Source of the DNA: Erythrobacter sp. HKB08
GTDB taxonomy: Bacteria; Pseudomonadota; Alphaproteobacteria; Sphingomonadales; Sphingomonadaceae
DNA: 64,000 nt
Direction: 5' to 3'
Assembly (NCBI RefSeq): GCF_004114695.1
Contig: NZ_CP035310.1
Location: 1,285,501 to 1,349,500, forward strand
Shown: positions 6,794 to 20,617 of the stretch, in pieces
Layout of the letters: the number at the start of each line of letters is the position of its first letter
Numbering within the stretch: position 1 is the first letter of the stretch
Translations under genes and position numbers: made by a program
The notes under the pieces: model-generated
Databases searched by the model: none
Told to the model about the DNA's origin: nothing
The model's input: only the letters and a program-made list of their open reading frames with translations

Positions 6794-7285
6794 ATGCGCC
6801 GCCTTGTCGCCCTCTCGCTGCTCGTCCTCGCCGCCTGTGCGCCGGTCGAGCGTGCGCCACTGGCTGGCAAGGCGGACTTCGTGCTCGTCGACAAGTCGGA
6901 CCGCACGCTCACGCTGATGCGCGATGGCAAGGTGCTGCGCGAATACACCGGCATCGCCTTCGGTGACGAACCTTCGGGCCACAAGCGCTTCGAAGGCGAC
7001 GAGCGCACGCCGGAAGGGCTCTACACGATCGACACGCGCAACCCGGACAGCGCCTATTACCTCTCGCTGCGCATCTCCTATCCGAACGAGCAGGACCGCG
7101 CCTATGCCGAGGCCCAGGGGCGTTCGCCGGGAGGGGACATCTTCATCCACGGCCAGCCCAACAACTCGCCGTTGTCCCGCCTGCCGGGCGACTGGACCGA
7201 CGGCTGCATCGCGGTGAGCAATGCCGAGATGGACGAGCTGTGGCAGGCGATCGAAGACGGCACCCGGATACGCATTCGTCCTTGA
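6794..7285 (+). CDS. L,D-transpeptidase (YkuD) lipoprotein
   Basis: A 163-residue protein with a lipoprotein signal ending LLVLAAC, so C15 is the probable lipidated residue. The remainder is a YkuD catalytic domain of the ErfK type: HGQPNNSPLSRLPGDWTDG then CIAVSNAEMDEL, carrying the histidine and the nucleophilic cysteine. Such enzymes form 3-3 cross-links in peptidoglycan or attach proteins to it in the periplasm. Start ATG 5 bp after purA. The domain is compact and lacks LysM or other wall-binding modules. Which reaction it performs is unknown. Confidence 0.88.
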   Translation: MRRLVALSLLVLAACAPVERAPLAGKADFVLVDKSDRTLTLMRDGKVLREYTGIAFGDEPSGHKRFEGDERTPEGLYTIDTRNPDSAYYLSLRISYPNEQDRAYAEAQGRSPGGDIFIHGQPNNSPLSRLPGDWTDGCIAVSNAEMDELWQAIEDGTRIRIRP

Positions 7286-7299
7286 CTTGATCCTCATTT

Positions 7300-7314
7300 G
7301 TTCTCAACCTGTTC
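7300..7314 (+). promoter_or_regulatory. Alphaproteobacterial-type SOS (LexA) box
   Basis: GTTC at 7300-7303 and GTTC at 7311-7314 are separated by exactly seven bases (TCAACCT), the direct-repeat LexA operator GTTC-N7-GTTC known from Alphaproteobacteria. It lies 22 bp before the ATG at 7336 and downstream of a TTGACT (7282-7287), so it would cover the -10 region. A perfect match is expected about once or twice per 64 kb by chance, so the position is what makes it convincing. Confidence 0.65.
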
Positions 7315-7335
7315 CGATTGGAGCAGGAGTCGCAG

Positions 7336-8313
7336 ATGCAGGCCGATTTTACCTACGAACCCGCCGAGGCGGCGAACGACCCGGCAGGCGTGCCGCTGAC
7401 CGTTTCGGTGTTCGCGGACCGTGCCCATCTGCGCGACCAGATTGCGGAAGATGCACGAGCCGCAGGTTTGCGCATCGGGCAGGTGGGCGACATCGCGCAG
7501 GTGCTCGACGGCGAAGCGCGGCCACTGGGCGACATCGTGCTGCTCGACTGCCCGATTGCCGAGGGGGAGCGTCTGGCTGCATTCGCGCGGCTCGACATGC
7601 GCGTGGCACGTTCCGGTGCGAAGCTGGTGGTGTCGACCAGCGTCGATGCGCTCGACGCGGTGTTCGGTTGCTTCGACCAGTCGCGCGCGCAGATACTCGT
7701 CGATCCGTCTCGCGGAGAGCGGGTGATTGCGCTCGGCGGACTGCTGACGGAAGTGCCGGGCATGCGCCTGCGCGAACTGGCGGAAACCGACCGCATGACG
7801 CTTATGCGCCTGACCGAGCAGGTCGGGCAGATTGCCGAACGGCTGGAAAGGCTCGACCAGCGCGGCATGGCGCAGGATGGCGGCGCATTCCGCTTCGAAT
7901 CGCCGACTTCGGGATATCGCTCCGGCGCCGACGACGGCTCGGCGCGCCTGCGCACGCAGAAGCCACCGCTGCCCGATCCGCGCCTCGTGCGCACGATGAT
8001 CCGCCAGCGCCGCTTGCGCGACGAGTTCTTCGATGCCGAACTGTTTGCCGATCCGGCGTGGGACATCCTGCTCGACCTTACCGCTGCGCGAACGGAGCAT
8101 GTGCGCGTCTCGGTCAGCTCGCTGTGCATCGCCGCAGCCGTCCCGCCGACGACTGCGCTGCGCTGGATAACCCAGATGGTCGAAAGTGGCCTGCTCGAAC
8201 GTCTGCAGGACGATACCGACAAGCGCCGCGTGTTTATCGGCCTGTCCGACAAATCGGCAAATGCGATGGCGAGCTATTTCGCTGCGCTCGGGAAGAAGCG
8301 GGCTGCGGCCTGA
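7336..8313 (+). CDS. Receiver-like/winged-helix regulator, SOS-boxed, function unknown
   Basis: 325 residues; the start at 7336 is preferred over one 18 bp upstream because GGAG lies seven bases before it. Residues about 20-130 resemble a response-regulator receiver (DIVLLDCPIAEGE for the acidic strand, KLVVSTSVDALDAVF for the switch strand). A short helical stretch (TDRMTLMRLTEQVGQIAERL) follows, then a MarR-like winged helix near residues 230-320 containing SSLCIAAAVPPTTALRWITQ and RVFIGLSDKS. It looks like a DNA-binding regulator. No cognate kinase is nearby. The SOS box directly upstream suggests induction by DNA damage, which is an inference. I do not recognise a named family. Confidence 0.6.
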   Translation: MQADFTYEPAEAANDPAGVPLTVSVFADRAHLRDQIAEDARAAGLRIGQVGDIAQVLDGEARPLGDIVLLDCPIAEGERLAAFARLDMRVARSGAKLVVSTSVDALDAVFGCFDQSRAQILVDPSRGERVIALGGLLTEVPGMRLRELAETDRMTLMRLTEQVGQIAERLERLDQRGMAQDGGAFRFESPTSGYRSGADDGSARLRTQKPPLPDPRLVRTMIRQRRLRDEFFDAELFADPAWDILLDLTAARTEHVRVSVSSLCIAAAVPPTTALRWITQMVESGLLERLQDDTDKRRVFIGLSDKSANAMASYFAALGKKRAAA

Positions 8314-19178: not shown

Positions 19179-19208
19179 TTGGCGCGTGGCGACGTTCCGA
19201 CTATGTTC
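19179..19208 (+). promoter_or_regulatory. rmuC promoter with overlapping SOS box, predicted leaderless
   Basis: TTGGCG (19179-19184), 17 bp, then TATGTT (19202-19207) forms the promoter, and the ATG at 19214 follows six bases later with no ribosome binding site. GTTC-N7-GTTC occupies 19194-19208, overlapping the -10 box exactly as a LexA operator should. rmuC is reported in the SOS regulon of some Alphaproteobacteria, which supports the reading. Confidence 0.7.
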
Positions 19209-19213
19209 TGCTG

Positions 19214-20617
19214 ATGGATGCAGTTTCTATCGCTCTGATTTTCGTCGCGCTGCTTGTCGGCGCAGGCATTGGCTGGTTCGTCGGATCGCGTCCCGCGGCC
19301 GACTGGAAGTCGCGCTTCGAAGGGCGCGATGGCGAGGCGAAGGAGCTGGACGAGAAGTTTCGCAAGGCCATCGTTGACCTCGAAAATGCGAGCGTCCGGG
19401 CTGAACGGGCCGACGAGCTTGAGCGCAAGCTGGACGGCACGCGCGAGGAACTGACCGCACTCAAGGCGCAGGCCGCCGGTTTCGAGGAGCAGAAGCGGCT
19501 GCTCGAGGAGAGCCGCGAGAAGCTGCTCAAGGAATTCGAGAATACCGGCGCCAAGGTGCTCGATGGTGTGCAGGCCAAATTCTTGGAACAGGCCAGCGAG
19601 CGCTTCGGCCATGCGGAGAAATCCTCCGAAGAGAAGATCAAGGCGCTGCTGACCCCGGTGGGCGAACGGCTGAAGAAATACGAAGAGCAGGTCGAGACGT
19701 TGGAGAAGCAGCGGGTCGACGCCTTCGGACGGCTCTACCAGCAGATCACCGAGATGCAGCGTGGGCAGGAAGAGGTCCGGCGCGAGGCGCAGCGGCTTGG
19801 CAACTCGCTGACCAATGCGCCCAAGGCGCGCGGCCGGTGGGGCGAGCGGGCATTGCAGAACGTGCTCGAACAGTGCGGCCTTGCCGAGCACACCGATTTC
19901 CATCTCGAACAGTCGATGGAAACCAGCGAGGGGCGGCTGCGACCCGATGCGATCGTCAATGTTCCGGGCCAGAAGAAGCTGGTGATCGACGCCAAGGTTT
20001 CGCTCAACGCCTACCAGGCCGCGTTCGAGGCGGATGACGAGGGGGAGCGCAAGCGTCACCTCGACCTGCATGCGAAGTCCATGCGCACCCACGTCCAGAC
20101 GCTCGGTTCGAAGGGCTACCAGAGCCAGTTCGACGATGCGCCGGACTATGTGGTTATGTTTGTGCCGGGCGAGCACTTCGTCGCCGCCGCTCTCGAACAC
20201 GATCCGGAACTGTGGGATTTCGCCTTCCACAATAAGGTGCTGCTCGCCACCCCGACGAATCTCGTCGCCATCGCGCGCACTGTCGCGCAGGTCTGGCGGC
20301 AAGACACTATCGCTAGAGAGGCGATGGAAATCGGCAAGGCCGGGGCGGAACTCTACGACCGTCTGGCGGTGGCGGCCGAGCATATGAAGCGCGTCGGCGG
20401 CGGGCTGGAAACCGCGGTCAACAACTACAACAAGTTCGTCGGCAGCTTCGAGCGCAACGTCCTCTCGTCCGGTCGGCGACTGGCCGAGAAGGGCATCGAG
20501 ATCGGCAAGCGCGAAATCGAGGAAGTGCCCAAGGTCGAGGCCAGCCCGCGCTACAACAACGACGATGCCGCGAAGATCGAGGATGAGACCGGGGACCAGC
20601 GCGACGCGGCGGAATGA
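19214..20617 (+). CDS. rmuC: DNA recombination protein RmuC
   Basis: RmuC-family proteins limit DNA inversions and are predicted nucleases. The 467-residue protein has an N-terminal transmembrane segment (about residues 4-24), a long coiled coil rich in E, K and R to about residue 195, and the RmuC domain with KARGRWGERALQNVLEQCGL, RPDAIVNVPGQKKLVIDAKV and DYVVMFVPGEHFVAAAL. The membrane anchor plus coiled coil is usual for the family. The ATG at 19214 fits the anchor and the upstream SOS-controlled promoter; the frame is open further upstream. Confidence 0.93.
   Translation: MDAVSIALIFVALLVGAGIGWFVGSRPAADWKSRFEGRDGEAKELDEKFRKAIVDLENASVRAERADELERKLDGTREELTALKAQAAGFEEQKRLLEESREKLLKEFENTGAKVLDGVQAKFLEQASERFGHAEKSSEEKIKALLTPVGERLKKYEEQVETLEKQRVDAFGRLYQQITEMQRGQEEVRREAQRLGNSLTNAPKARGRWGERALQNVLEQCGLAEHTDFHLEQSMETSEGRLRPDAIVNVPGQKKLVIDAKVSLNAYQAAFEADDEGERKRHLDLHAKSMRTHVQTLGSKGYQSQFDDAPDYVVMFVPGEHFVAAALEHDPELWDFAFHNKVLLATPTNLVAIARTVAQVWRQDTIAREAMEIGKAGAELYDRLAVAAEHMKRVGGGLETAVNNYNKFVGSFERNVLSSGRRLAEKGIEIGKREIEEVPKVEASPRYNNDDAAKIEDETGDQRDAAE

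Follow-up and report, generated by a model that had tools for sequence, protein, structure and literature searches.

A conserved SOS box precedes the gene of a putative receiver-MarR transcription factor in Erythrobacter and Qipengyuania relatives

Main finding

Gene 7336-8313 of the window (the whole 64-kb stretch of DNA that was analysed) encodes a predicted transcription factor that combines an atypical receiver domain with a MarR-type winged helix. Based on its promoter and on the comparison with related genomes, it is likely that LexA represses this gene and that the product forms a second regulatory step of the SOS response. SOS regulation of the gene is well supported by sequence conservation, and reading the product as a second-tier transcription factor is reasonable given its domains. 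In this group, DNA damage would thus probably turn on one more gene regulator. Accounts of the SOS response usually have a single repressor that controls repair genes directly; a LexA-controlled transcription factor that is conserved would add a second regulatory layer in an alphaproteobacterial group whose named members are Qipengyuania and Erythrobacter and, if true, DNA damage there may control something beyond repair.

Locus and promoter

The genome consists of one contig of 2.75 Mb, and the window corresponds to its bases 1285501-1349500. Local gene order is purA, a ykuD-type gene, and the regulator gene, followed by a cysG-type gene and lysA in convergent orientation; the regulator gene is probably transcribed alone, because the following gene is convergent. 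Its neighbours are housekeeping genes. The preliminary description had stated that no kinase lies nearby, which holds for the nine neighbours scanned (1.8-13.5 kb, two short frames there left out), none of which is a cognate kinase. The main features of the locus are as follows.

7336-8313, + strand: regulator gene, 325 aa, ATG start
7282-7287, + strand: -35-like TTGACT; the logo of 64 orthologous promoters shows strong conservation of CTTGAC
7289-7292, + strand: GATC, a degenerate word 11 bp before the first GTTC that may be a third LexA half-site
7300-7314, + strand: predicted LexA operator (SOS box), GTTCTCAACCTGTTC, a perfect GTTC-N7-GTTC conserved in orthologues
7305-7310, + strand: presumed -10 element CAACCT, weak, inside the operator and 17 bp from the -35 element, placed by the position of TTGACT

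Both elements described earlier, the perfect box and the TTGACT upstream of it, were found in the sequence. The gap between TTGAC (7282-7286) and the box is 13 nt, and a further 21 nt separate the box from the ATG at 7336, which is preceded by GGAGCAGGAG. An alternative in-frame TTG start at 7318 is possible and less likely than this ATG. TTGACT also covers 7283-7285, where the YkuD-type gene upstream has its stop codon.

Taken by itself the box proves nothing. The window contains 3 perfect matches versus 1.69 ± 1.38 expected, which is not significant alone and agrees with the earlier estimate of one or two chance matches per 64 kb. Genome-wide, 57 perfect boxes are present versus 37 for the reversed control pattern, and the majority of the 57 lie inside open frames. 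What decides that the box exceeds chance is its conservation in the promoters of orthologues, as judged by sequence comparison.

Conservation of the box among orthologues

A protein search of 199 genomes of the host's family gave matches in 189. All 150 listed matches were oriented and their upstream DNA was read, which yielded 80 evaluable orthologues and 68 distant homologues; L108 and L111, located at contig edges without upstream sequence, were left out of the box counts. The SOS reading was to fall if the box were not conserved in orthologues, and it held: among the matches listed, 64 of the 80 evaluable orthologues carry a perfect box in the same promoter, 56 of these 64 with the same TTGAC-to-box spacing of 13 nt. 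The number expected by background in the orthologue promoter stretches is about 0.24, as derived from 14 other perfect boxes in 413 kb of the same loci (both strands). Relatives of purA, ykuD, or cysG are found in the fetched flanks of 78 of the 80 orthologues. According to the logo of the 64 promoters, TTT before the LexA words is also conserved, and four spacer positions between the GTTC words carry little information.

Among the 16 orthologues without a perfect box, 12 have a promoter site with one mismatch (10 in register with TTGA), and four (L092, L099, L105, and L112) have no convincing promoter site. One of the 12, L040, also carries a perfect box at -76 on the opposite strand. Such a further opposite-strand perfect box near the promoter is seen in L040, L074, and L075 (about -76 to -79) and in L110 (-37), and some promoters would therefore have two sites.

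The orthologue clade of 80 has 100% SH-aLRT support in a quick tree of 106 rows, from which L108, L111, L114, and L132 (under 230 aa) were left out. The box label needs 13 changes on this tree, and well-supported branches force 7 or more of these, so the site seems to have been lost or altered fairly often. Orthologues of named hosts taken from another collection (Qipengyuania and Erythrobacter) have the perfect box in 5 of 5 cases, and these five loci may coincide in species with genomes already counted. The named hosts fit the group guessed in the preliminary description (Erythrobacteraceae/Sphingomonadales).

The same box at other genes

In this genome, a perfect box precedes lexA, recA, pcrA/uvrD, radA, rmuC, and an imuA-like gene, as well as two radical-SAM genes and the gene of a DinG/YoaA-like helicase; before the imuA-like gene and one radical-SAM gene it is reversed. 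Gene names were assigned by NCBIfam, the imuA match being weak (E 1.5e-6) and several proteins being cut by the ends of the fetched stretches. Another boxed gene, which has no NCBIfam match, is presumably mmcB. The regulator-gene operator has the same core as the operators that precede lexA and recA in this genome, and the LexA consensus given for Caulobacter is likewise GTTCN7GTTC (PMC12700426).

These genes also serve as yardsticks for box retention. A box is present in 30 of 30 lexA loci (the 30 best loci; 97 genomes with a match), and, within the genomes of the orthologue clade, in 21 of 22 recA loci and 16 of 19 rmuC loci (each from the 30 best; 58 and 56 genomes matched, respectively). 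Retention for the regulator gene is thus similar to that of rmuC and below that of recA and lexA. These yardsticks exclude imuA loci, whose start sites were unsure.

Two of the boxed genes deserve separate mention. The window contains a second SOS gene, rmuC (19214-20614), with the perfect box GTTCCGACTATGTTC at 19194-19208, 5 nt before its ATG. Elsewhere in this genome (L020, 1007177-1007191), a perfect box starts 68 nt before the ATG of what looks by eye like a phage-type integrase gene, which suggests a damage-inducible mobile element.

Operator details

In all 30 lexA operators (L190-L219), one more GTT-like word stands 11 bp before the box (GTTG in 25, GTTT in 3, and GTTC in 2), so that the lexA operators of the family consist of three half-sites in phase (GTTG/GTTT/GTTC-N7-GTTC-N7-GTTC). 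This arrangement, present at every one of the 30 loci, is a testable prediction on LexA binding in the group. The word is found in none of the 29 recA and 27 rmuC operators (all loci with a box). Among the 64 regulator-gene operators, the position 11 bp upstream has at least 3 of the 4 letters of GTTC in 32 cases (GATC in 26), and offsets one or two bases away match in only 0-5. The position 22 bp upstream of the box also matches in 32 of 64, mostly as ATTC; this signal may be simply promoter sequence, its letters lying within the conserved TTC before TTGAC.

It is possible that GATC at 7289-7292 represents a third, weaker LexA half-site. Its conservation could instead reflect promoter constraints, because the word sits between the -35 and -10 elements. 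CTTGACNTGATC was also considered as a separate site of the regulator itself and rejected; the genome has one other perfect match to it, at 512232. Compared with such a site, the half-site reading fits the GATC position better: L168 has a complete GTTC there, and in L102-L104, which have lost the perfect box, an ATTC/GTTC pair persists in the third-half-site register.

Distant homologues

Outside the orthologue clade, a perfect box in either orientation lies upstream of 13 of the 68 distant homologues, versus 1.22 expected from the rest of the loci, and 55 have none; equal windows downstream of the 68 genes contain 0 boxes. In 9 of the 13 (L120, L121, L125, L126, L128, L330, L333, L342, and L350) the box is reversed (GAAC-N7-GAAC) and located 0-40 nt before a possible start codon. 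Judged by eye, the boxes of L123 and L364 are too far from the start, and the starts of L129 and L331 are unsure. The reversed orientation outside the clade suggests that LexA control of the protein family was gained or rebuilt more than once.

The view of LexA control as limited to the clade was dropped, as 7 of 28 and then 13 of 68 distant homologues proved to be boxed in the wider search. An earlier count of 0 of 28 covered only the same strand and 320 nt before the matched part, and the match often starts far inside the protein; the widened count covered both orientations up to the start of the frame, and the 40 added rows gave 6 boxed ones. The recurrence of the box in distant homologues supports LexA control, and only the sharp clade boundary is weakened.

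L113 (G087) and L116 (G151), deep relatives that adjoin purA, have no LexA box in either orientation. The open frame of L113 overlaps the end of the purA frame, and this relative may therefore be co-transcribed with purA. Another genome (G015) contains, along with the boxed orthologue L032, a paralogue of the regulator (L114) with 51% identity over the C-terminal half, and a second open frame upstream of L114 looks related by eye. The neighbourhoods of paralogues (seven loci) have no consistent neighbour that would hint at function. In a class-wide search 21 of 240 genomes have a match, which outside the family is mostly to the C-terminal winged-helix part.

Protein architecture

The receiver-like domain, linker, and MarR-like winged helix proposed in the preliminary description are borne out by Pfam, by profile comparison, and by a structure model, with the refinement that the receiver has no usual Lys. 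The predicted parts are the following.

7387-7743, + strand: atypical receiver domain, residues 18-136; D28, D71, and T101 mostly kept, no Lys at 123
7762-7869, + strand: long helix, probable coiled linker, residues 143-178 (from the model, partly low confidence)
7960-8289, + strand: MarR-type winged-helix region, residues 209-318, the most conserved part

The Pfam MarR family matches residues 258-299 with 25.2 bits (cut-off 24.6), and at E up to 0.01 MarR and HTH_27 match 64 and 75 of 78 orthologues, respectively. The receiver half has no Pfam match in the window protein or in the 78 orthologues. Compared with the PDB, a profile built on these orthologues matches the NtrC receiver (E 1.4e-4), CheY, and MarR proteins. 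The predicted structure, a monomer model of medium confidence (mean pLDDT 65, built from six sequences only), has a (beta-alpha)5 fold over residues 22-136, continues with a helix (143-178), and ends in a winged helix (240-324), in which a terminal helix (305-324) is present. Foldseek matches of the model are FleR/Spo0F receivers and MarR proteins, and VIA-align reports receivers, the CpaE-type one (4dn6) included, with Z up to 13.6 over 114 residues at 2.5 A.

The alignment of 78 orthologues (L108, L110, L111, and L112 left out) separates the two halves. Mean identity to the window protein is 71.5% for the winged-helix region and 53.4% for the receiver, and all 27 invariant columns belong to the C-terminal part. 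As for the residues that mark response regulators, the protein has the receiver fold and the phospho-acceptor Asp, and lacks the acidic pair and the Lys. D71, the Asp at the end of strand 3, is present in 71 of 78 orthologues, T101 in 73, and D28 in 69. Position 27 is A, S, T, or C in all 78 and never acidic, and position 123 (end of strand 5) is D, E, N, A, Q, S, G, or R, with Lys in 0 of 78. Because the Lys and one of the two acidic residues are missing, the receiver is atypical, and a role as a standard phosphorylation switch is improbable.

Alternative explanations

The most serious alternative accepts LexA control and assigns the protein a local or structural role, for instance in assisting other proteins at damaged DNA or regulating a single partner, its winged helix binding DNA non-specifically. 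It agrees with the fact that no targets, autoregulatory motif, or regulated neighbour were found, that the adjoining genes are housekeeping ones, and that repair genes make up most of the named genes with an SOS box elsewhere in this genome. The winged helix, however, is highly conserved with many invariant residues and resembles MarR regulators by both sequence and fold, so this explanation seems unlikely. In the search for targets, the second GTTC of the recA box was seen to lie within a palindrome, TGTTC-N5-GAACA, at 28 of 30 loci (L229-L258), and the palindrome occurs at 16 places in this genome. It was rejected as a target of the regulator: recA loci outside the orthologue clade also have it, and it is therefore not tied to the regulator gene.

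A different view is that the repeat only resembles a LexA site and serves as an operator for some other regulator or for the protein's own autoregulation. MarR-type proteins often repress their own gene, and boxes recur before the 13 boxed distant homologues of the same protein. Moreover, the first spacer letter is T in 50 of the 64 regulator-gene operators, but C in 24 of 30 lexA and 23 of 29 recA operators. On the other hand, the identical GTTCN7GTTC core stands before lexA and recA in the same genome family, the lexA operator has a half-site at the same 11-bp phase, and the repeat is direct, whereas typical MarR sites are inverted repeats. The logo of 64 promoters has no further strongly conserved or palindromic element that would indicate autoregulation; no own binding site can be proposed from it, because it contains only CTTGAC, the LexA words, TTT, and the GATC position. 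An operator of this other kind is considered improbable. Least credible of all, and close to negligible, is a chance match or a conserved -35/-10 core promoter mistaken for a LexA box. The near-expected number of matches in the window and the location of the box at the expected -10 place would agree with it, but the excess over background among the orthologues contradicts chance, and the low-information spacer, together with the lexA, recA, and rmuC words at other or no TTGAC distances, contradicts a core promoter.

Proposed mechanism

According to the preferred reading, in which LexA represses a second-tier transcription factor, LexA would occupy 7300-7314 in the undamaged cell, covering the presumed -10 element and blocking RNA polymerase. 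Upon damage, RecA on single-stranded DNA would induce self-cleavage of LexA, and the regulator gene would be transcribed. The product would then act as a transcription factor altering the expression of a second set of genes, with the receiver most likely serving as a dimerisation or protein/ligand-sensing module rather than a phosphorylation switch. In this scheme we infer that LexA binds and represses, that the gene is induced, that its product binds DNA, and that a target set exists.

A more far-reaching version, a lineage-wide SOS cascade with a three-half-site operator, separate LexA capture, a response to damage plus a second signal, and a late gene set, is tentative and on balance rather doubtful. 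In Erythrobacter-like bacteria the operator would here repeat its half-site in tandem every 11 bp, up to three times, like that of lexA, and other branches of the family would have come under LexA separately, via reversed boxes at start codons. The amount of the regulator would represent the damage signal, its kinase-independent receiver would read a second one, and separate late genes would be switched.

Comparison with known systems

The operator and its promoter-proximal place are the same as in the alphaproteobacterial LexA regulon of the GTTCN7GTTC type, described in Caulobacter (PMC12700426). The present gene, however, encodes a putative transcription factor and not a repair enzyme. Half of the regulator-gene operators share the lexA-type extra word resembling a half-site, in contrast to the operators of recA and rmuC.

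Regarding its output domain, the protein resembles MarR-family regulators in its winged helix, according to both Pfam MarR and MarR structures, but has about 200 extra N-terminal residues that form the receiver and the linker. The receiver part shares the (beta-alpha)5 fold and the strand-3 Asp with two-component receivers (NtrC, CheY, and Spo0F) and with the receiver-like domain of CpaE. In contrast to two-component regulators, it has no strand-5 Lys in any of the 78 orthologues and a single acidic residue after strand 1, its output is of MarR type, and the nine neighbours scanned include no kinase.

Among the open-licence papers searched, no report was found of a LexA-controlled receiver-MarR regulator or of the SOS regulon of Sphingomonadales or Erythrobacter. 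A parallel is HigX of Caulobacter crescentus, an SOS-induced transcription factor with targets outside DNA repair (PMC13384398). HigX combines a LytTR domain with four predicted transmembrane helices and is located behind the LexA-dependent higBA promoter. The present protein, likewise a predicted transcription factor of the SOS response, has receiver and MarR folds and a LexA box of its own.
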